Notes under the pieces: generated by a model | Told to the model about the DNA's origin: nothing | Database searches by the model: none | The model's input: the letters and a program-made list of their open reading frames with translations, nothing else | Program-made: the position numbers and the translations under genes | Shown here: piece after piece, positions 42,719 through 64,000 of the stretch | How positions within the stretch are numbered: position 1 is the stretch's first letter | Layout of the letters: every line of letters starts with the position of its first letter | NCBI GenBank assembly: GCA_029066845.1 | Contig: JAIEFR010000022.1 | Span: 82,184-146,183 of the forward strand | Direction: 5' to 3' | Source of the DNA: Clostridia bacterium | Lineage (GTDB): Bacteria > Bacillota > Clostridia > Christensenellales > Borkfalkiaceae | Length of the DNA: 64,000 nucleotides

Positions 42719-45700
42719 TTATTCGTGTTTATCGTCGTCCGTAAAACCCAAATCGGTCACGGGGTCGGCAGGCGTATAGAAGCCGCCTACGTCAAACACC
42801 CTTCCGTCGTCAACGGGCATAGGCGCCACGTAGTTGCGCACAACCGTTCTGCCCGCGGGCGCCGCCTGCGCGTTCTGCGCGGGTTGCGCCGACTTTTTGG
42901 TGGTGTCTATCTTGGTGGTAGTCACCGTCGTCATAACCGCGTCGGGAGGTACCTGCGTTGCCGCGGGAGCCGCCGCACTGCCGTCCGTAATCTGCGCGGG
43001 CTGTGCGGGCGCCGCCGCAATTATCTGCGGCGCTGCCGAGGACAGCACGTTTTTAAGCGCAACTGTCAACGCCTCCGTAAGCGTATCGCCCGGCATATTG
43101 CCGCTGCGCATACGCTCCACCATAAGCTCGTTGCGGGTCTGCGCAAGCTCTTCACGCGTGGAGGCAAGCTCGTTTGCCGCAATATCGCTTTGCAGCTTTT
43201 CTATCTTGCCGTTCATACCCGTGATAATAGCCAGAAGCTCGGGCGAAATCGAACCGCCGCCTGCCGCCTGTGCCTGGGGTGCGCTCTGTGCCGGAGCCAT
43301 AGACTGCTGTGGCATCTGAGGCATCATCTGGGGCATCATCATCTGAGGCTGAGCCATACGCGCCATACGCTCCTCGCGTTCCTCGCGCCTGCGCTCTTCC
43401 TCACGCAGTCTGCGTTCCTCCTCCTTGCGCTCTTCCCTTTCGAGTCTGCGCTGTTCCTCAAGCTCTCTGCGCTCGCGCTTTCTCTTTGCCGAACGCGCAC
43501 CCAGCACTATTATAAGGATAAGCGAGATGAGCACTACCGCCGCGATTACAAGCCACAGCCAGTTTTTGACAAGGAATTTTACGACTTTATCCCAGACGGT
43601 AAGCTCCTTTGCAGGCGTAGTATAGGTGAACGATTTCATTCTGTACTGCTCCGCGCTTGCGTCAAGCTCGAAGTTTTCCGTGTCCAAAAGCTCCGCCTTT
43701 ACGTAGTACGTAGTTTCGTATGCAAGGTCTTCCGCCGCAATTTCTTCCGTGCAGGTTTCGTCCGTATAGTACTTCAACGTTATCACGTCGCTAAGCTCGC
43801 CCATAAAGCTCTCGCTTGCGAACACGGGCAGCGCGCCGTCCTTCTTTGTCGCGGTAATTACCGCTCTTCCAACGTTCCAGTCAACCGCCGCTTCGTTTGC
43901 AAGAAGCGTTACTTCGCCGTCATACAGAGCAACCGCGAACACCGCCTTTTTATAAGTCGTTGCCGTAGCCCACTCGTAATTGTCGTAGTCGTTCAAAGCG
44001 AATACTGCCTTGTACGTGCCGACTGTCAGACCGCTTTGCAGCTTGTCGGCAACGAAGGTCATCAACTCGGCATCGTAACCGTTGAAATTGTCCGCATTGG
44101 GCCTTATTGCCGCGCCCGTGTAGCTCAGGCCGCCCTTGAACGTGGGCAAAGCAACCTTGACCTTTGCAACGTTGATTTCAACCGTGGTCGTAACGCCGTC
44201 CGCATACTTGACGGTTATAACCTGCTTGCCCGCCTTGAACTTGTCGCCGTCGCGCAGGTTGTCGCAGGTGATTTCCAGATCCGCAACTTCAACGCTTTCC
44301 TTGTTGCCGTTGTTGTACTCGATTTCGGCGGTAAGCTTTGCTTTCAACTCGTCCAGAGTGCTTGCGGTCGTAAACGCCGCGCCGTCCTCTACCTTTGCAG
44401 AAACGCCCGTAACCACCGCGTCGCTTATCGTCAGCGTAACTTCAACGGGGTCGATGTCGTTATAGTTCTCGTCGTCTTCCAGAACGAAGTGAACTTTCAC
44501 CGTATAGTTGTCGGGGTCGGTAAACTCGAAAGGCGTATCCTGCTTAACTCCGTTATATTCATACTTAACCGCCTTAACACCCTCGGGCAAACTTGCAACC
44601 TCCACCTTGTGCGGCTGTCCGTTGCTTACCGCGGTACCGCCCGTAACCGTGCCGTCGGGCACGTTCAGAGTCGCCTTCTTAATGGTCAGCGTTGCCTGCA
44701 AGTCGTCAACGTCCGCATAGGTCGGATCACCCGTTGCAACCGAAATCGTCACGCGGTATTTGCCCGCGTTCTTCAAATCAGCCGCCGTCTTGATAACCCA
44801 CTCGCCGTTCTCTTCCTTCTCGTATTTATACGTAGGCGTAAAGGTAACTTCCGCGCCGTCCTTGTCCAAAAGCTTGCCGCCGAGCGTAAACGAAATTGCG
44901 CTGTCGGGGTCGTAAGTCGCGGTATATGCGCCGTTCTCGCCCTCTACGCCCGTCACCTCTATCGTAAGATTATTGGTATACGTTTCCTTGTCGGTAATGA
45001 TAAGCAAAGCCGTTATATCGTCAATGTCGTTATAGTTGGCATCGGTATGCGCAAACTTTGCGGTAACGGTGTAACCGGTTTCGTTAATCTGGTTAAACTC
45101 GAATGGCGTGGTCTGCGGCGCGCTTCCGTTATAAACGTAAGTCACCGTAACGCCGGCGGGCACCTTGTCTGCGACTAATGAATGCATCTGGCCGTCGTGC
45201 GTAATCGTCTGCTTTTTGAACTCGATTTTATCCGCACCGGGGTAGTTTGCCTTCTTTATTTCAAGCGTGACGGAAATTTCCTCATCGCCCGAAGCAATCT
45301 CGTAGTTGGTCGTATCGTCGGGCGCATACGTTGCGATAATCTTATATTCGCCTGCGTTCTGCAAATCAGCCGCCGTAGCCGCAACCCAAGCGTTGCTTGA
45401 ATTCTTCTTTTTGTAGGTGATCGTAGGCGTAGCCGCAACCGTGTCGCCGTCCTCGTTCTTGACGTCGCCGCTGGTTGCAAACACAACGGTAACCGCGGGG
45501 TCGTAGGTGAAAGTATATGCGCCGTTCGAGCCCGTCACTCCGCTCGTGCTCGTCGTAAGCGAAACGCCCGTCATATCCAGAACACCCTTGTCAATCGTAG
45601 GATAAATATCGAAGGTCTTGCCCTTGTAATTTACGGTCAGCGTTATAGGGTCGCCCGCTTCAAGGTTGCCCGTAATTGTAACTCCGCTGTCGCTTGAAGA

Positions 45701-48310
45701 AACGGGCAGGTAGCTTGAACCGCTGTAATTCCACTTTGCCGTTACGGTAAGGTTGCCCTTGATATCGCTTTCGGTTACGGGGTAAACGAGGTGCGTGCCG
45801 TTATCATCGTACGCGGCGTCTATATCCACAACCGAAGCGGCAAGTACGGTAATCTGCTTGTCGCCCGAAGCGCTTGGCGTGGTGGACCTTGCGCGAATAG
45901 TTACGTTGCCCGCGGCAAGCTTGCCGCCGCTACCACCGCTGACGACCGAAAGCGTATACTTGTCGTCGCCGATTTCCTTCTTGGTGCCGTCGTTATCGTT
46001 ATAAACTACTTTAACCGTTATAACGTTCTTCAACGAATAGTCGCCGTCGGTAAGAGTAAACGCGTCGTAAATACTTTCGTCTACGGCAGTGTCGTTGCCT
46101 GTGTTGTCCTTGACCTTATTTATAGTAATATCCAGACCGCTTACCGTGGCGTTCCTGAACACTAAATTTACCTTGGTATCGCTATTCTTTTCGGTCAAGG
46201 TCAGATAATTGACCTTGTTAGCCGTGTCAGGTTCGAACTTCCAGTAGTAGTCGGCATTTGTCGTACTTGGATCCTGACTTTCGTGCCATTGCAGCGTGCC
46301 CGGCGTGGCGTTTGCGTGAACGTTTTGAATATCGGGCAGTTTACCGCCGTTATCCGTAACGTACCGCGTAGCAGGCGTCCCGTTTACGTAGCCTATCGTA
46401 ACGTTGGGCTTTATCCTGTCAACCGTTATTTTAAACGGTTTGTCGGTAGTCGTGCCGTCCGTCCATTGATATTTGGTTTTATCCGCCAATTCGAGCGTGA
46501 TAGTGTATTCGCCCGCGTTTATTATATTAGAAGTACCGGCGGTAGTTTTGTCCTCCTCCGTTGCGCCGTCCACAAAGCTCTTGTACTTAATTGACTTTAC
46601 GGTCACGACGGTAGTATCCAAGTGCATACTCTTATCTATCCACACGGGGTCCTTGGGAGTTACGCCGCCCACCGCTTTAAGATTGAGGTTATCCAGCCAG
46701 TGCGAATGTGCGGAATTATATTCCATTCCGTCAATATCCTTGGGGATAATAACGCCGTTCTGCGTATAGGTTGCGTAAACGCTTTCGGTTGCCATTGCGT
46801 TAGCCGGAGTGGTGTTTGCGGAAGTAAGCATTACCGTGGGAATATAATCTTTATACGCAACGCTTGAAGGCAAATTAAACTCAACGACCTGCTCCGAAGT
46901 GCCGCTCGTCATAGCTGAAACCGCCTGATATGCAACCGAACCGTCGGTTGCGTTTTTGTCCTGCAACAACAAGACTAAGTTGCCGGCCTTGCCGGAAGTA
47001 TTTTTGAAAGTAACTTTAACTTTACTGCTTGCCGAAGTTATTACGGGGGCAAAGCCAGTATTGCTGAAACCGCTGTCTTTAATATATAACTTGTATTCGG
47101 GTTTTGCCGTAGCCGTACCCGTTACGTCCGTAAGCGTATTGCTGACATTGCTACCGTAACTGCTGGCGTATGCTATTTGCGATAAATCAAGGACGGTTGC
47201 GGGACGCGCGTTACCCATATTATACTGATAGTATCCGCCTATTATATTGCCACAATTATAGTCGCTATTCACGTGCTTTCCGTATATGGTCATTACCGCA
47301 ACGGCACCTTTATCATTAATAAAAGGCTCACGCAAAGTAGTAAATTGATCAGACTGATTTTTTAATGCGTCGTTTAATATACCGTTAGCTGTTATAAAGG
47401 TAGGATAACCGTTCTGCCAACCTGTAAAAGCATAGGCAGGATTGTTGGCTGCAATTAACTCGAAATAAGTTTTATTCGTAACACTGTCAACAAAGCCGTA
47501 ATCTGCGGTATTGGCAACGTCCTCTATATCCAGATAGAACAATCTGTCGCCGCTGACTTTATCGCCGACAACATAGTTGTTGCCACCGGTAACATCGGGA
47601 TCAGTGGAACGGGTTGCCGAGGCATTAGCTGTAATGAACTGATAATTAGCTGTGAAAGCTGTTGCAGTCATTCTTAGAGCACTATCAGGCCAATATATTA
47701 AACGCGTTATATAAGGTTTTGTGCCTTGAATTGCGTTTTTAAAGTTTGAATCACCGGTAATAGCTATCCTATCAATAACCGAATGTCCTGTGAAAGCACT
47801 CAAGTTACCGTTAGTCGAAACATAGTATTTAATATCTTCGCCGTTCGTCGTAGTAGTACCGTTTAAAATTGCGCGCGCGCAACTCGATCCCCAAAAGACG
47901 GTTTCGGTTGTCGGAGCAGAGTTATAGTATATATTGTAATGCAATTCAGACTGCATCAAGAGATTTTTACCGCTGCCGTACTTGGTATCGTTCTTTTTGA
48001 GGACGCGCCACTTCATAGGTGTACCGGTTGCAGTTGGATCATACCCACCTGCCCCCGTAGCTGTAAGTGTAAAGTCACTGCCGAAATAGACGTACTCCTT
48101 CTGTCCGCCCTCAATTTTATTTTCGAAATTGGTGTTTGCGGTGCCCGTCTTAGTATCGATACTCAATACGGAAGCGGAACCGTTTGCCGAGTCGGCGTAA
48201 GCGTTATTGCCTGCGCCCGAAAACGAAAAAACCGTGCCGAAAGTAAGCGCAGTGCACGCGCACAACGCCGCTAATATTCCTCCCACGAAAGTCTTACGCT
48301 TGATTTTCAT
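42719..48310 (-). CDS. Giant surface protein 1: DUF6273-like N-domain, Ig/MBG-like repeats, C-terminal TM, cytoplasmic tail
   Basis: 1863 aa from ATG 48310 with AAAGGAG RBS; signal peptide; repeated Ig-like modules (TYDPAVTVVFATSGDV, LTIKKATLNVPDGTV); TM WLWLVIAAVVLISLILIIVLG; charged then Met/Gln/Pro-rich tail. Confidence 0.8.
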   Translation of the reverse strand: MKIKRKTFVGGILAALCACTALTFGTVFSFSGAGNNAYADSANGSASVLSIDTKTGTANTNFENKIEGGQKEYVYFGSDFTLTATGAGGYDPTATGTPMKWRVLKKNDTKYGSGKNLLMQSELHYNIYYNSAPTTETVFWGSSCARAILNGTTTTNGEDIKYYVSTNGNLSAFTGHSVIDRIAITGDSNFKNAIQGTKPYITRLIYWPDSALRMTATAFTANYQFITANASATRSTDPDVTGGNNYVVGDKVSGDRLFYLDIEDVANTADYGFVDSVTNKTYFELIAANNPAYAFTGWQNGYPTFITANGILNDALKNQSDQFTTLREPFINDKGAVAVMTIYGKHVNSDYNCGNIIGGYYQYNMGNARPATVLDLSQIAYASSYGSNVSNTLTDVTGTATAKPEYKLYIKDSGFSNTGFAPVITSASSKVKVTFKNTSGKAGNLVLLLQDKNATDGSVAYQAVSAMTSGTSEQVVEFNLPSSVAYKDYIPTVMLTSANTTPANAMATESVYATYTQNGVIIPKDIDGMEYNSAHSHWLDNLNLKAVGGVTPKDPVWIDKSMHLDTTVVTVKSIKYKSFVDGATEEDKTTAGTSNIINAGEYTITLELADKTKYQWTDGTTTDKPFKITVDRIKPNVTIGYVNGTPATRYVTDNGGKLPDIQNVHANATPGTLQWHESQDPSTTNADYYWKFEPDTANKVNYLTLTEKNSDTKVNLVFRNATVSGLDITINKVKDNTGNDTAVDESIYDAFTLTDGDYSLKNVITVKVVYNDNDGTKKEIGDDKYTLSVVSGGSGGKLAAGNVTIRARSTTPSASGDKQITVLAASVVDIDAAYDDNGTHLVYPVTESDIKGNLTVTAKWNYSGSSYLPVSSSDSGVTITGNLEAGDPITLTVNYKGKTFDIYPTIDKGVLDMTGVSLTTSTSGVTGSNGAYTFTYDPAVTVVFATSGDVKNEDGDTVAATPTITYKKKNSSNAWVAATAADLQNAGEYKIIATYAPDDTTNYEIASGDEEISVTLEIKKANYPGADKIEFKKQTITHDGQMHSLVADKVPAGVTVTYVYNGSAPQTTPFEFNQINETGYTVTAKFAHTDANYNDIDDITALLIITDKETYTNNLTIEVTGVEGENGAYTATYDPDSAISFTLGGKLLDKDGAEVTFTPTYKYEKEENGEWVIKTAADLKNAGKYRVTISVATGDPTYADVDDLQATLTIKKATLNVPDGTVTGGTAVSNGQPHKVEVASLPEGVKAVKYEYNGVKQDTPFEFTDPDNYTVKVHFVLEDDENYNDIDPVEVTLTISDAVVTGVSAKVEDGAAFTTASTLDELKAKLTAEIEYNNGNKESVEVADLEITCDNLRDGDKFKAGKQVITVKYADGVTTTVEINVAKVKVALPTFKGGLSYTGAAIRPNADNFNGYDAELMTFVADKLQSGLTVGTYKAVFALNDYDNYEWATATTYKKAVFAVALYDGEVTLLANEAAVDWNVGRAVITATKKDGALPVFASESFMGELSDVITLKYYTDETCTEEIAAEDLAYETTYYVKAELLDTENFELDASAEQYRMKSFTYTTPAKELTVWDKVVKFLVKNWLWLVIAAVVLISLILIIVLGARSAKRKRERRELEEQRRLEREERKEEERRLREEERRREEREERMARMAQPQMMMPQMMPQMPQQSMAPAQSAPQAQAAGGGSISPELLAIITGMNGKIEKLQSDIAANELASTREELAQTRNELMVERMRSGNMPGDTLTEALTVALKNVLSSAAPQIIAAAPAQPAQITDGSAAAPAATQVPPDAVMTTVTTTKIDTTKKSAQPAQNAQAAPAGRTVVRNYVAPMPVDDGRVFDVGGFYTPADPVTDLGFTDDDKHE

Positions 48311-48339
48311 AAACCGTACTCCTTTGCGGGCTGGAAAAA

Positions 48340-48366
48340 AATAAGGGCAACCATTAAAGGTTGCCC
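48340..48366 (-). terminator. Intrinsic terminator inside the 5' leader of giant surface protein 1
   Basis: Minus strand GGGCAACC-TTTAAT-GGTTGCCC-TTATTTTTTT between promoter and start codon. Confidence 0.75.
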
Positions 48367-48386
48367 GCATTTAGTACCTTTAATGC

Positions 48387-48495
48387 TGCTCTTAATCCAA
48401 CTACGCCACTATTCGGGAGTACGGAAAATAGGTACTACACTGCCTGTAGTACATCCCGACGATAGTGGATTATTATTCAGTTTGGATTAAGAGCA
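48387..48495 (-). ncRNA. Highly structured 5'-leader domain (candidate riboswitch/attenuator sensor)
   Basis: P1 14 bp (48387-48400/48482-48495), P2 7+6 bp with 2-nt bulge (48406-48418/48454-48468), P3 7 bp with 7-nt loop (48432-48438/48446-48452). Confidence 0.65.
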
Positions 48496-48500
48496 TACTT

Positions 48501-48528
48501 ATTATATCATACGATTTATAATTTTCAA
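48501..48528 (-). promoter_or_regulatory. Promoter of giant surface protein 1
   Basis: Minus strand TTGAAA-16 bp-TGATATAAT (extended -10); predicted start at the 5' strand of P1. Confidence 0.75.
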
Positions 48529-48600: not shown

Positions 48601-48637
48601 AAAAAGCCCCCGCGCAAACCTGCGCGGGGGCTTTTTA
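48601..48637 (-). terminator. Rho-independent terminator of rplJL
   Basis: AAAAAGCCCCCGCGCAGGTTTGCGCGGGGGCTTTTT. Confidence 0.9.
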
Positions 48638-49650: not shown

Positions 49651-49683
49651 ATCTTTTTACCTCCCGTATTATTTTGATTATAA

Positions 49684-49708
49684 AAAAACCTTACACCGCA
49701 AAGGTATA
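49684..49708 (-). terminator. Intrinsic terminator in the rplJ leader
   Basis: Minus strand CCTTATACC-TTTGC-GGTGTAAGG-TTTTTTT. Confidence 0.75.
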
Positions 49709-49800
49709 AGGCATAATAATTACAAAGTTATAATTAAAAAGCTTTCTACCTCGGCAAGAAATTAAGCTTGTAAAAAGCACTTGCTGTCTGCGGTATGTTT
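49709..49800 (-). ncRNA. Ribosomal protein L10 leader
   Basis: Minus strand ACCGCAGACAGCAAGTGC...CTTAATTTCTTGCCGAGGTAGAAAGC matches the L10-leader core (CCGnAGACAG ... CTTAAT ... CCGAGGT). Confidence 0.88.
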
Positions 49801-49813
49801 AATTTACGTTACG

Positions 49814-58382: not shown

Positions 58383-61300
58383 TTAATCCTTTTTGTCCGT
58401 GTCGTCGCCGAAGCCCAAATCGGTTACGGGGTCCGCGGGGGTGTAGAAGCCGCCGACGTCAAACACACGTCCGTCGTCAACCGGCATAGGTGCAACAAAG
58501 TTGCGCACAACCGTTCTGGGTGCAGGCGCGGGCGCACTTGCCTGTGCTGCCTGCGCGGGTTTTTTGGTCGTGTCTATCTTGGTGGTAGTCACAGTCGTCA
58601 TAACCGCGTCGGGAGGTACCTGCGCCGCAACGGGTGACGCACCGCTTTCCGTAGCCGCTGCCGCGGGGTTCTCTCTGCCGTCAAGCACTTTTATAACCGT
58701 CTTTTCAACAAGCTCGGTCAGCTTATCCAGTGTTATACCGGTAATACCCGAGGTCTGCTCTCCGCCTCGCAAAGCGTTTATATCACTGCGCATAACGGCG
58801 TTCTGTTCGGCACGCAAAGCCATTTCTCTTGCCGTCATTTCCGCCCTGATAGCCAGTTCCTTAGCCATATCCTGACTTGCTTTCATAGCCGCCATTTCGG
58901 CTTTGAGCTCGGCAATCTCGTTAGACGAAGCACCGCCGCCCATCGACATAGACTGACCGCCCATCTGAGGCATTCCCTGAGGCATCATCTGCGGCATAGG
59001 CTGAGGGATATACTGGGGCTGAGGCGCCGCCTGCGCCTGCGAAAGCCTTGCCATACGCTCCTCGCGTTCGAGGCGGCGTTCTTCGCGTTCGCGCTCCTCT
59101 TTTTCCAGTCTGCGCTGTTCGGCAAGCTCCGCCCTTTCGCGCTTCTTCTTAGCCGCACGCGCAATCAGCGCGATTATGGTTATGAGAAGTATTAGCGCAA
59201 CAACCGCAATGACTATCCACAGCCAGTTTGCTTTTAGGAATTTTACGATTTTTTCCCAGGTCGTCAGCTCTTTGGCAGGCGTGGTATAGCTGAACGATTT
59301 TACGGTATACTGCGCCGCGCTTGCGTCAAGCTCGAAGTTCTCGGTGTCGAGCAATTCAGCCTTAACGAAATACTGCGTTTCGTGCGCAAGGTCTTCCGCC
59401 GCTACCTCTTCCGTGCAAGCCTCGTCCTTATAGTACTTCAAAGCAACTATATCACTGAACGCGCCTATGTAACTCTCACTTGCGAATACGGGAAGTGCGC
59501 CGTCCTTCTTGGTCGCAGTAAGTACAGCTTTTGCAATGTTCCAGTCAACAGCCGCTTCGTTTGCTAAAAGCGTTACTTCGCCGTCATATACTGCCACAGC
59601 AAACACTTTTTTGCTCACTGCAGTTGCCGTAGCCCACTCGTAGTTTTCATAATCGTTCAGAGCGAACACCGCCTTATATGTGCCGACAACCGTACCGCTT
59701 TGCAGCTTGTCGGTGACGAAGGTCATAAGCGTTTCGTCATAGCCGTTGAAATCCGCCGCCTTGGGTTTTACCTCAACGCCCGTGTAGCTCAGACCACCCT
59801 TGAACGTAGGCAGAGCAACCTTTTCTTTCTCAACGCTAATCTCAACGAAAGTGCTGTATTCGTTGCCGTCCTCGTCCGTGTACTTGACGGTAATTTTCTG
59901 CAAACCGAACTTAAACATTCCGTCGTGCAGATTGTCGCAGGTCAGTTCGTAGTCTTCCGTCACGCTGTCGCCGCCCGTCGTATTGACGGTTACGGTCAAC
60001 GCCTTTTTCAAATCGTCAAGCGTATTCACAGTAGTGAATTTCGAGCCGTCCTCAACCTTTGCGGTAATGCCCAGAATACTTGCGTCCGTAATGGTCAGAG
60101 TTGCCGTCTTATCGCCAATACCGTTGTAATTTTCGGTATCCTCTACCGTGAACTTTGCGGTGAACTCGTAAGTTCCGATTTCGGTAAATTCCTTTCCGCT
60201 CTGATTCTTAACTTCATATTCAACCGTCACACCGTCGGGCAACGTTCCGCTAATCGTCAACGTGTGCGTTTTGCCGTCGTATGCCGCGGTTGCATCTTCG
60301 AACTTCACGCCCGACATATCCACGTCGGCTTTGGCAATGGTCAGGTTAATCGTTATATCCTGCGGCGTTGCGTGGTCCGCATTGGCATTGTTAAAGGATA
60401 CCACCGCACGGTAATCATCCGCACCGTTTGGCTTGCCGCTGACGGATACCCAGTTAGTGCCGTCATACTTTTCGTAAACGACTTTATCAACCGTTACGCC
60501 GTCTGGCAGGTCGGACACCGTAATTTCAACGTCACTGCCGTCATATGTTGCCGTGAAGCCGCTCGTAATATCGCCCGAAGCGTTCGCGCCGCCCGAAGCG
60601 GTTACACCCGTCATATCATAGAGCAACAGGTTGGTTATTTCAAGCTCTATTTCCTTGTCGCTGATGGCGTTGTAATTGGCGTTGTCCGCCGCATTGTTGA
60701 ACGCAAAGTGCGCCGTTACCTTGTACTTGCCCTTGACTGTGAAATCAATCGGGGCAGATTGCGCCGCGCCGCCGTTGTGCGAAGGGCTGGAATAGGTTAC
60801 GGTCACGCCGTTCGGCACGTTGGTTGCCGCTATGGAGTGCGCATTGCCGTCGTCATAGAATTGATTGCCCTTGAACTCAATCTTGTCAGCGTCGGGATAA
60901 TTTGCCTTGTTTATGGTAAGCGTGACGGTTATTTCGTCCTCGCCAGTGGCTATTTTGTAGTTATCGGTATCGTCGGGAACGTATTTGGCAATTATCTGAT
61001 ATTCGCCTGCGTTCTGCAAATCTGCCGCCGTTGCCGCAACCCACGCGTTGCTAGAATTCTTCTTTTTGTAGGTAATTGTCGGCGTAGCCGCAACGGTATC
61101 GCCGCCTGCATTCGTAACGTCGCCGCTCGTTGCAAATTCAACGGTAACGTTGGGGTCGTAGGTGAAAGTGTATGCACCGTTCGAACCCGTCACTCCCGTC
61201 GTGCTCGTCGAAAGCGAAACGCCCGACATATCAAGAGTGCCTTTTTCAATCGTAGGATAAATATCAAAGGTCTTACTCTTGTATTCTACGGTAAGGGTTA

Positions 61301-64000
61301 TAGGGTCGCCCGCTTTGAAAGTGCCCGTAACGTCAACGTCATTGGCTGCAACGGGCAGATAGTCTGAACCGCTGTAATTCCACTTTGCCGTAACGGTAAG
61401 GTTGCCCTTTATATCGTCCTTGGTTACGGGGTAGGTAAGGTGCGTGCCGTTATCGTTATATACGGCGGTAATATCCTCCACCGCGGAAGCAAGAACGGTG
61501 ATATTATCCAAAGTACCCGACTTGTTGGTAACGCTTGAATTGTTGGAGTTGCCCGTCGCCTGAATCTTTACCGTACCTGCGGCAAGCTTGCCTCCGCTTC
61601 CACCGCTGAGAATAATCAGCGAATAGTCACTGTCGGCAATATCTATCGTGGTGTTGTCGTTATCCGCATAGACGGCTTTGACCGTTATGTAATTCTTCAA
61701 CGAATAGTCGCCGTCGGCAAGAGTGAACGCATCGTAAATACTTTCGTCTACGGCAGTATCTTGACCGCTTTGGTCTTTAACTTTATTTATGGTAATTGCA
61801 AGATTTTTTACCGTCGCAACGTTATAGTTAATCTCTACCTTGGTGTCGTCGTTCTTATCGGTCAAGGATAAGTAATTGACTTGGTTTGCGGCGTTTGGCT
61901 CGAACTTCCAGTAATAGTACTTATCCGCCGTACTGGGGTTTTGGTTTTCGTGCCATTTCAGCGTACCCGGCGTGGCGTTTGCGTGAACGTTTTGAATATC
62001 GGGCAGTTTACCGCCGTTATCCGTAACGTACCGCTTAGCAGGCGCAGTTTTTACGTAGCCTATCGTAACGTTCGGCTTTATCCTGTCAACCGTTATCTTG
62101 AACGGTTTGTCGGTTGTCGTGCCGTCCATCCATTGATATTTGGTCTTATCCGCTAACTCCAGCGTTATAGTGTATTCGCCCGCATTTATTATCTTGGAAG
62201 TGCCGTCAGTGGTCTTATCCTCTTCCGTTGCACCAGTCAAAAAGCTCTTGTACTTGATTTCCTTTACTTTTACTATAGAAATATCGCAGTGCGTGCTCTT
62301 ATCTATCCACACGGGGTCCTTGGGAGTTACGCCGTCCACCGCTTTAAGGTTGAGGTTATCCAGCCAGTGCGAATGTGCGGAATTGTATTCCATTCCGCTT
62401 ATGTCCTGCGGAATTATTACGCCGTTCTGCGTATAGGTTGCGTAAACGCTTTCGGTTGCCATTACATTGGTTTGAGTGGTGTTTGCCGAAGTGAGCATTA
62501 CCGTAGGTATATAATCTTTATAGGTAACAGTAGAAGGCAGGGTAAATTCAACGACCTGCTCCGCAGTGCCTGCCGCCATTGTCGCAACTGCCTGATATGC
62601 AACCGAACCGTCGGTTGCGTTTCTATCCTGCAACAACAAGACGGCGTTGCCCGCCTTGCCCGAGGAATTTTTGAAAGTAACTTTAACTTTATTGTTTGCC
62701 GAAGTTATTATCGGCTTAAAGCCCGTATTGCTGAAACTTGAATCCTTTATGTAAAGCTTATATTCGGGCGTAGTCGTATTCGTTTCTCTTACGTCTGATA
62801 AGGTTGAGAATATATTATTACCGCTACTGCTTGCGTACACTACCTTTGACAAATCCAGAACGAATGCGGGGCGATAACCGTTTCTTTCGTTTGCACCTAC
62901 GCCATATGCTAAAGTGCCTTCATAAACTTGCGCTAACGCCGACTTCATAGTCGAAGCGTTATAGGTCAAACCGGCGCCTCTTAACCAATACCATTTTGCA
63001 CTGTTAGCGTTAAAACCTTTTCCTTCAAACCTGGTATTTGTGTCAAAATATCCGTAAAATCCCAATTTATAGCTATCTTCGATTATATCGCCGCTGCCGT
63101 CGTAATAACCGGAAGCCACGGCGGGGAACATCGCTTCAAGATAAGTTTTGCCGTTACTGTCAACGAAGCCGTACCTGCGGTTGTTCATATCCATATAATC
63201 GAGCATAAAAAGCTTATCGCCCGTAAGAGTTTCGGTTACGCCGTCGCTCGCGCTGAAGCTTACACTGAAATTATTATTGGCGTCGCTTACGCCCGTTTTG
63301 GTGTTTACAGGTGCTGCGCCTGCAGCTGCCGTATTGTATAAACTATCATTAGTTTTATATGTAGACGGATTAGTATAATATATATCGCCTTGGGTGCTAT
63401 TAACAGTTCTCCATACAGGATACGCATTTCTGAAATAATAGGCATCGTGACATTTAAGCTCGTCTACAGTCTGAACTGCCGATAGAGAATTCACGTCAAA
63501 AAGTTTATTTAATAATGAATCCTCATATCTTACCTCTATACCGCTAGTCGTAATATCTCCCGGTTCACAATTTAAAGATGCTACGTGACCGCCGACAAGA
63601 TTTGCTCTGGCAAGACTTGTGCCGTAAAATGCATAAGAAGTACACTGCGTATCCTGCCCGTACCCCTCAAAGAAAACATCTTCGGCGAAAAGCAAAAGGT
63701 TTTTGCCCTGACCGTATTTAGTATCGTTTTTTGCAAGAACGAGCCATTTTGTAGGCGCACCGTTGTAGCTGCCGAAGTAGACGTTTTCATTTTGTGCGCC
63801 CTGAACTTTATTTTCAAAGTTACTGTTTACTGTGCCCGTACTCGAATCGATACTCAATACGGAAGCGGAACCGTTTGCCGAAGCGGCGTTTGCGTTTATA
63901 CCGTCAGAGGTTTTAAAAAATGAAAAAACTGTGCCAAGACAGAGTCCTGCACAGAATATGGGCGTGAGTATATAAAGCAACGCGCGCTTTACGGCACTTT
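58383..64000 (-). CDS. Giant surface protein 2, paralog of 42719..48310 (5' end beyond window)
   Basis: Frame stays open past 63980 (SAVKRALLYILTPIFCAGLCLGTVFSFF signal peptide); same domain order; TM WLWIVIAVVALILLITIIALIA and a near-identical C-terminus RVFDVGGFYTPADPVTDLGF. Confidence 0.8.
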   Translation of the reverse strand, partial: SAVKRALLYILTPIFCAGLCLGTVFSFFKTSDGINANAASANGSASVLSIDSSTGTVNSNFENKVQGAQNENVYFGSYNGAPTKWLVLAKNDTKYGQGKNLLLFAEDVFFEGYGQDTQCTSYAFYGTSLARANLVGGHVASLNCEPGDITTSGIEVRYEDSLLNKLFDVNSLSAVQTVDELKCHDAYYFRNAYPVWRTVNSTQGDIYYTNPSTYKTNDSLYNTAAAGAAPVNTKTGVSDANNNFSVSFSASDGVTETLTGDKLFMLDYMDMNNRRYGFVDSNGKTYLEAMFPAVASGYYDGSGDIIEDSYKLGFYGYFDTNTRFEGKGFNANSAKWYWLRGAGLTYNASTMKSALAQVYEGTLAYGVGANERNGYRPAFVLDLSKVVYASSSGNNIFSTLSDVRETNTTTPEYKLYIKDSSFSNTGFKPIITSANNKVKVTFKNSSGKAGNAVLLLQDRNATDGSVAYQAVATMAAGTAEQVVEFTLPSTVTYKDYIPTVMLTSANTTQTNVMATESVYATYTQNGVIIPQDISGMEYNSAHSHWLDNLNLKAVDGVTPKDPVWIDKSTHCDISIVKVKEIKYKSFLTGATEEDKTTDGTSKIINAGEYTITLELADKTKYQWMDGTTTDKPFKITVDRIKPNVTIGYVKTAPAKRYVTDNGGKLPDIQNVHANATPGTLKWHENQNPSTADKYYYWKFEPNAANQVNYLSLTDKNDDTKVEINYNVATVKNLAITINKVKDQSGQDTAVDESIYDAFTLADGDYSLKNYITVKAVYADNDNTTIDIADSDYSLIILSGGSGGKLAAGTVKIQATGNSNNSSVTNKSGTLDNITVLASAVEDITAVYNDNGTHLTYPVTKDDIKGNLTVTAKWNYSGSDYLPVAANDVDVTGTFKAGDPITLTVEYKSKTFDIYPTIEKGTLDMSGVSLSTSTTGVTGSNGAYTFTYDPNVTVEFATSGDVTNAGGDTVAATPTITYKKKNSSNAWVAATAADLQNAGEYQIIAKYVPDDTDNYKIATGEDEITVTLTINKANYPDADKIEFKGNQFYDDGNAHSIAATNVPNGVTVTYSSPSHNGGAAQSAPIDFTVKGKYKVTAHFAFNNAADNANYNAISDKEIELEITNLLLYDMTGVTASGGANASGDITSGFTATYDGSDVEITVSDLPDGVTVDKVVYEKYDGTNWVSVSGKPNGADDYRAVVSFNNANADHATPQDITINLTIAKADVDMSGVKFEDATAAYDGKTHTLTISGTLPDGVTVEYEVKNQSGKEFTEIGTYEFTAKFTVEDTENYNGIGDKTATLTITDASILGITAKVEDGSKFTTVNTLDDLKKALTVTVNTTGGDSVTEDYELTCDNLHDGMFKFGLQKITVKYTDEDGNEYSTFVEISVEKEKVALPTFKGGLSYTGVEVKPKAADFNGYDETLMTFVTDKLQSGTVVGTYKAVFALNDYENYEWATATAVSKKVFAVAVYDGEVTLLANEAAVDWNIAKAVLTATKKDGALPVFASESYIGAFSDIVALKYYKDEACTEEVAAEDLAHETQYFVKAELLDTENFELDASAAQYTVKSFSYTTPAKELTTWEKIVKFLKANWLWIVIAVVALILLITIIALIARAAKKKRERAELAEQRRLEKEEREREERRLEREERMARLSQAQAAPQPQYIPQPMPQMMPQGMPQMGGQSMSMGGGASSNEIAELKAEMAAMKASQDMAKELAIRAEMTAREMALRAEQNAVMRSDINALRGGEQTSGITGITLDKLTELVEKTVIKVLDGRENPAAAATESGASPVAAQVPPDAVMTTVTTTKIDTTKKPAQAAQASAPAPAPRTVVRNFVAPMPVDDGRVFDVGGFYTPADPVTDLGFGDDTDKKD

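Follow-up and report, generated by a model that had tools for sequence, protein, structure and literature searches.

A candidate riboswitch-like transcription attenuator ahead of surface-protein genes in one order of Clostridia

The stretch of Clostridia DNA analysed here (64,000 nucleotides; the window) carries on its minus strand a leader at 48311-48528, between rplL, which ends in its own strong terminator (48601-48636), and the gene for a 1863-aa giant secreted protein in which no Pfam match was found. What is so structured a leader for? Its minimum free energy is predicted at -68.4 kcal/mol, whereas shuffled sequences average -42.6 (sd 4.24; z -6.1), and 0 of 200 shuffles folded as well. 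We propose, with a probability of about 0.6, that the leader attenuates transcription in cis and represents an RNA class not yet filed, riboswitch-like in its working, in which a pseudoknot stabilized by an effector would turn expression off.

Parts of the leader and its relatives

A first-pass annotation, made from the sequence alone, had described a riboswitch- or attenuator-like leader at this locus. The promoter, the stems P1, P2 and P3, the terminator, the Shine-Dalgarno sequence and the ATG that it named all lie on the minus strand where it had placed them; a pseudoknot between P3 and the linker is an additional part, absent from that description. In order of transcription, the parts are as follows.

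48501-48528, minus strand: promoter by sequence, with -35 TTGAAA (48523-48528), a 16-nt spacer with extended TG, and -10 TATAAT (48501-48506)
48482-48495, minus strand: 5' strand of P1, UGCUCUUAAUCCAA, half of a perfect 14-bp inverted repeat, covarying across the family
48474-48480, minus strand: joining strand CUGAAUA, a conserved GAAUA-like internal loop adjoining P1 and found again in most relatives
48406-48468, minus strand: P2 domain, CCACUAU/AUAGUGG (48468-48462 with 48412-48406) and CGGGA/UCCCG (48458-48454 with 48418-48414), closing the core hairpin
48432-48452, minus strand: P3 hairpin GUACUAC-AGGCAGU-GUAGUAC (48452-48446 with 48438-48432), with the 7-nt loop AGGCAGU
48430-48435, minus strand: first pseudoknot strand, GUACCU (GUAYCC in the family), followed by a U-rich tract and UUCC
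48387-48400, minus strand: 3' strand of P1, UUGGAUUAAGAGCA, 100% complementary to 48495-48482 and covarying with it
48377-48385, minus strand: 5' strand of the antiterminator, CAUUAAAGG (CATTAAAGG in the coordinate listing), a family pairing with covariation
48374-48379, minus strand: second pseudoknot strand, the linker AGGUAC (GGRUAC in the family), whose first three bases also belong to the antiterminator
48363-48369, minus strand: UGCGGGC, near-invariant, within the antiterminator loop and overlapping the 5' arm of the terminator
48345-48366, minus strand: intrinsic terminator hairpin GGGCAACC-UUUAAU-GGUUGCCC, by pairing and covariation, with arms GGGCAACC (48366-48359) and GGTTGCCC (48352-48345)
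48352-48360, minus strand: 3' strand of the antiterminator, CCUUUAAUG (CCTTTAATG in the coordinate listing), covering the terminator loop and stem edges
48335-48344, minus strand: U-tract of the terminator by sequence, UUAUUUUUUU, conserved in alignment A1
48325-48330, minus strand: CCCGCA, complement of UGCGGG (48369-48364), downstream of the terminator and adjoining the Shine-Dalgarno sequence
48319-48325, minus strand: Shine-Dalgarno sequence by sequence, AAAGGAG
42719-48310, minus strand: regulated gene for the 1863-aa giant secreted protein, with its ATG at 48310 and the signal peptide MKIKRKTFVGGILAALCACTALTFG

From the sequence, transcription is predicted to start at the first base of P1. 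An ordinary L10 leader (RF00557, 84.7 bits; window 49673-49811, minus strand) stands upstream of the ribosomal-protein genes found before this leader.

The genome to which the window belongs consists of 25 contigs, measures 1.56 Mb and carries six copies in total. Four further leaders there (C10:62-316, C10:5246-5615, C20:73862-74214 and C9:161745-161480) all precede paralogous giant proteins of the MKIKRKTF type and share the promoter, terminator and Shine-Dalgarno region, with completely different sequence between promoter and terminator; the sixth copy, L232 (C12:12338-12443), found by the sensor-part model, precedes a lipoprotein gene. With a cut-off of E 0.01 the terminator module occurs in 44 of the genus's 94 genomes, 30 of them at E<1e-6, and it occurs in 81 of 301 genomes of the family (8 of 18 genera). 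The sensor model matches 47 of 396 genomes of the order, spread over 21 of 142 sampled genera; in the class it matches 5 of 392, of which four belong to the window's own family, and in the phylum sample 1 of 349, the window's own. The weakest matches in these counts may be chance. The RNA family is largely restricted to the order, with almost none elsewhere in the class or phylum samples, and the named matches are uncultured Clostridia MAGs. We reject an origin in a mobile element, phage or plasmid: viral contigs, phages and plasmids gave no match, and what is repeated in the genome is the entire leader together with its gene, as paralogues.

About 100 distinct elements present one order of parts: promoter, P1, internal loop, P2, P3, a YCC and U-rich strand, linker, UGCGGGC and terminator. 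P1 (about 9-19 bp) begins at the presumed first nucleotide, the internal loop contains GAAUA and GGAA, P2 (6-19 bp) changes its sequence freely, the linker after P1 ends in GGRUAC, and CCCGC usually precedes the Shine-Dalgarno sequence. P3 has the family consensus UACAnC-(N)GGCAU(N)-GnUGUA, with the GGC loop and UGUAYC near-invariant (alignment A2), and the conserved bases lie in loops and joining strands, not in helices, as they do in aptamers. Members from the window's genus often carry additional helices between P1 and P2, and those of other genera are compact at about 130-160 nt (about 130 nt in L131). A genome may hold up to about 10 copies, ahead of secreted-protein genes. At L181 two complete elements in tandem (326-477 and 592-728), both with a terminator of their own, lie downstream of a large SRP RNA gene that is encoded on the other strand.

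Conserved pairing and a linker with two partners

Throughout the roughly 100 related elements the architecture stays the same and pairing is conserved as the sequence differs. Of the P1 cells 98.9% are paired, and covariation scores 0.722 where slid controls reach 0.105 at most; the rows for this score were chosen by a script that required P1, and the test was therefore repeated without that filter, whereupon a P1 score of at least 10 was found upstream in 33 of 36 loci chosen by the terminator module alone, against 2 of 36 shuffled upstream sequences. The nine-nucleotide antiterminator pairing that the first-pass annotation had pointed out covaries across the family, with pairs in 98.5% of cells, double changes in 20 cells and a score of 0.429 (slid controls reach no more than 0.141); for the terminator 94.1% of cells hold a pair and the score is 0.242, compared with no more than 0.129 slid. 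Because the full-element MAFFT alignment misaligns P2, as it does the longer P3 of the window's genus, P2 covariation carries no column-wise score (R2 comprises composites with P2 trimmed); in L026, where identity over the terminator and gene start is about 97%, both strands of P2 carry a different sequence and still pair. The further pairing noticed earlier, between TGCGGG (48364-48369) and CCCGCA next to the Shine-Dalgarno sequence, is likewise a family trait, a downstream complement of at least 6 bp to the UGCGGGC stretch being kept in 91 of 101 relatives, compared with 20 of 101 shuffled sequences.

The GUAYCC that follows P3 is complementary to the GGRUAC that follows P1 in nearly every element. 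Duplexes with an element's own partner average -9.39 kcal/mol, as against -8.11 +/- 0.16 for swapped partners, with 0 of 2000 permutations as low (relatedness uncorrected), and letter-shuffled linkers give -2.4 kcal/mol. In the window 48430-48435 would pair with 48374-48379, three bases of which are common to the antiterminator strand 48377-48385. Two elements depart from the usual CC/GG/CC jointly in core, linker and terminator loop: L233, with core GUAUCUC, linker GAGAUAC and terminator loop UCUGAUUG (CUC/GAG/UCU), and L232 (C12:12338), with core GUACUCUC, linker GAGAGAUGC and terminator UUUCUCAA, its pseudoknot being CUCUC/GAGAG and its terminator UUUCUC. This preference for the element's own partner, together with the joint change of three segments, indicates that the linker can pair either with the sensor or with the terminator loop, an arrangement that, judged by its base complementarity, appears to be the logic of a riboswitch expression platform. 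Since the first pseudoknot strand overlaps the 3' strand of P3, a complete P3 and a full pseudoknot cannot coexist.

In successive fold predictions the antiterminator is the minimum-free-energy structure until the 3' arm of the terminator has been made, and the full transcript favours the terminator. Since the antiterminator is the earlier structure to form and the terminator the more stable one, readthrough could be tuned by elongation speed alone, and these predictions would accord with a passive attenuator that has no specific effector and whose balance is set by transcription speed, temperature or Mg2+. We consider such a device improbable, as it would have no need for the P3 loop, GUAYC strand and U-tract that are kept near-invariant across 21 genera, in a core that stays constant while the sequences of P1 and P2 vary freely.

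According to our preferred reading, a riboswitch-like attenuator, transcription would start at P1 and the RNA would fold into P1-P2-P3 with its GGC loop, GUAYCC strand and U-rich strand, the presumed sensor. The linker after P1 (CAUUAAAGGUAC in the window) would then face two mutually exclusive partners, its GGUAC half pairing with the P3-side GUACC to form the pseudoknot, or its CAUUAAAGG half pairing with the terminator's loop and 3' edge to form the antiterminator. Stabilization of the sensor and pseudoknot by an effector, most likely an ion or small molecule, would occupy the shared G's, so that the antiterminator could not form, the terminator would fold and RNA polymerase would stop before the gene. 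Without the effector the antiterminator would form first and RNA polymerase would read into the surface-protein gene, after which the CCCGCA adjacent to the Shine-Dalgarno sequence and the UGCGGG in the antiterminator loop may pair to hold the ON state. An overlap of just 2-3 nt between pseudoknot and antiterminator counts against the OFF direction, and the opposite sign is sterically conceivable: the pseudoknot strand would contact the antiterminator loop and stabilize the antiterminator, making an ON switch. The structure and probable mechanism that the first-pass annotation suggested for a riboswitch or attenuator are thus strongly supported by covariation, while effector binding and switching, the small-molecule nature of the effector and the OFF direction are what we infer.

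As in riboswitches, a conserved, covarying aptamer-like structure, with P1 and near-invariant core positions, stands in the 5' leader, joined to an expression platform that is predicted to be mutually exclusive with the aptamer-like fold; as in attenuators with intrinsic terminators, a G+C-rich hairpin and U-tract precede the start codon and a competing antiterminator is present. We regard the family as a real new RNA class that would work like a riboswitch-controlled attenuator, and place it with the candidates, not among the proven riboswitches.

Target genes, paralogous giants and the possible effector

The elements precede genes for 106 distinct proteins: a lipobox is present in 50, a zinc ribbon stands at the start of 17, and 14 belong to the MKIKRKTF giants; LRR_5 (BspA-type) domains occur in 37 of 77 scanned targets and zinc-ribbon families in about 12 of the 77, a scan that left the giants out. 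The regulon is a cell-surface set of BspA/LRR lipoproteins, zinc-ribbon membrane proteins and giant surface proteins with no pathway in common, and the target genes therefore do not name the ligand. One recurrent target is a membrane protein with an N-terminal double zinc ribbon, MxKCxxCGTEFEGxFCPxCG (for example at L042, L045, L117, L128, L134, L152, L154, L158, L168, L176, L180 and L199). Zinc itself we set aside as ligand and keep as a lead only: 17 of 106 targets have N-terminal zinc ribbons and many of the lipoproteins are rich in Cys, but the 14 giants lack CxxC.

Because the regulon joins surface lipoproteins and zinc-ribbon membrane proteins rather than the steps of a metabolic pathway, it leaves room for an effector that is itself protein or RNA. 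The same three-way attenuator could then answer to a trans-acting RNA-binding protein or small RNA that recognizes the GGC hairpin and U-tract, as the functionally mixed envelope targets might suggest and as a single-hairpin core, with its conserved loop and then a U-rich strand, resembles a protein-binding site. We judge this unlikely, though not negligible, since a long-range pseudoknot that couples sensor to expression platform is typical of riboswitches, as is tandem occurrence of the kind seen at L181. There is very little to recommend a processive-antitermination element, EAR- or LoaP-like, that lets RNA polymerase cross very long genes: the giant genes downstream in the window's genome, at about 5.6 kb, would suit it, but many targets are short (under 1 kb), the element has its own dedicated antiterminator for the adjoining terminator, and Rfam gave no match to such an element.

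The first-pass annotation had also expected a paralogous leader, beyond position 64000, ahead of a second giant protein (window 58383-63998, minus strand), whose frame, with the visible start SAVKRALLYILTPIFCAGLCLG, runs to the contig end, where the window stops too. That expectation is not supported: the protein's signal peptide, VKRALLYILTPIFCAGLCLG, matches a separate poly-G-tract family in which the 5' regions lack a leader of this kind. The 5' regions of this family instead show a promoter near-identical to that of the leader, as do the paralogous leaders of the same genome, followed by a short plain leader and, some 24 nt past the start codon (MKMFKMTTGGG...), a run of 9-11 G's; nine G's keep the frame, and 10 or 11 lead to a stop after 15-17 codons, tract lengths that were taken from a MAG assembly and should be checked in the reads. 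Its members are L014 (C20:~103600), L016 (C7:~175500), L015 (C19), L018 (C11), L019 (C24), L020 (C8) and L007 (C14 end), several of them at contig ends, and they are likely a phase-variable (slipped-strand) contingency set sharing the leader family's promoter. Giant proteins 1 (42719-48310) and 2 have similar mature N-termini (SANGSASVLSID..TG..N.NFENK..G.Q...VYFG) and differ in signal peptide and 5' control region, as if coding and control regions had recombined.

With the leader before MKIKRKTF giants and the poly-G tract in the other family, the paralogous giants seem to be under two controls, RNA attenuation and poly-G phase variation. We suggest tentatively, at somewhat less than even odds, that an order-restricted riboswitch class, built of P1-P2-P3 and a linker pseudoknot, senses an undescribed gut or envelope signal and sets the transcription of surface lipoproteins and giant proteins, alongside phase-variable poly-G giants with near-identical promoters in the window's species. 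Screening for a ligand is practical, given about 100 distinct examples, clear targets and a size of about 130 nt in the compact form. Should the class be confirmed, it would open a first way of studying how these gut Clostridia, largely uncultured, select what to present to the host and to competitors, and might bring to light a new signalling ligand.

Comparison with known RNA families

At gathering score Rfam 15 finds the L10 leader alone in the window, away from the locus discussed here, and it gives no family match at the leader at E up to 10, nor at 30 related loci; relaxed-E matches fall mostly on the rplL terminator (48601-48636), off the leader. The first-pass annotation had recognized none of the purine, SAM, T-box, c-di-GMP, ZTP, preQ1 or fluoride consensus sequences, and of the outcomes that it had set beforehand against its proposal, two, homologs without covariation and a known Rfam family, were looked for and neither was found. 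That the leader is a divergent member of a known family, such as the T-box or a c-di-GMP riboswitch, seems to us highly doubtful. Like T-boxes (RF00230) it is a long 5' leader in which linker and terminator compete, it occurs in several copies per genome, and its linker and terminator region (AAGGGUAC..UGCGGGC, a GGGUAC..GCGGG-like stretch) superficially resembles a T-box antiterminator; it differs in that neither the leader nor the 30 related loci match RF00230, the consensus GGRUAC is without UGG, no UGGNACC bulge or recognizable Stem I is seen (Stem I judged by eye), and the targets are not aminoacylation or amino-acid genes.

Surface proteins and adhesins can be under the control of c-di-GMP riboswitches (GEMM-I/II), one of which is reported, in PMC7423583, ahead of the surface-protein gene cbpA. 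In contrast, no GEMM-I/II or other riboswitch model matches the leader or the 30 related loci, also at relaxed E, and c-di-GMP is disfavoured because many carriers are without GGDEF proteins: 6 of 11 carrier genomes lack PF00990, among them G132 and G203, each of which carries about 10 copies of the element. The ydaO c-di-AMP riboswitch was rejected in the same way, its model giving no match; the DAC cyclase that makes c-di-AMP is present in 10 of 11 carriers, which speaks neither for nor against that nucleotide as ligand of a different fold.

We found no description of this leader class in the literature; the main texts of PMC2864571 and PMC6429828 make no mention of lipoprotein, leucine-rich repeat or surface protein, and supplementary candidate tables (e.g. 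PMC8040213) may hold an earlier automated listing. The leader family resembles the orphan riboswitch candidates that comparative genomics has produced (PMC2864571, PMC6429828, PMC8632094 and PMC11109978) in resting on covariation and genomic context. The elements share neither sequence nor secondary structure with preQ1-I-type switches, are much larger (about 130-300 nt) and match no Rfam family. To our knowledge, few riboswitch classes control surface proteins instead of metabolism or transport. In pseudoknot-type OFF riboswitches such as preQ1-I, the pseudoknot strand overlaps the antiterminator, and formation of the pseudoknot frees an intrinsic terminator. The leader is like them in both respects that can be read from its sequence, a pseudoknot strand that overlaps the antiterminator and an intrinsic-terminator platform.
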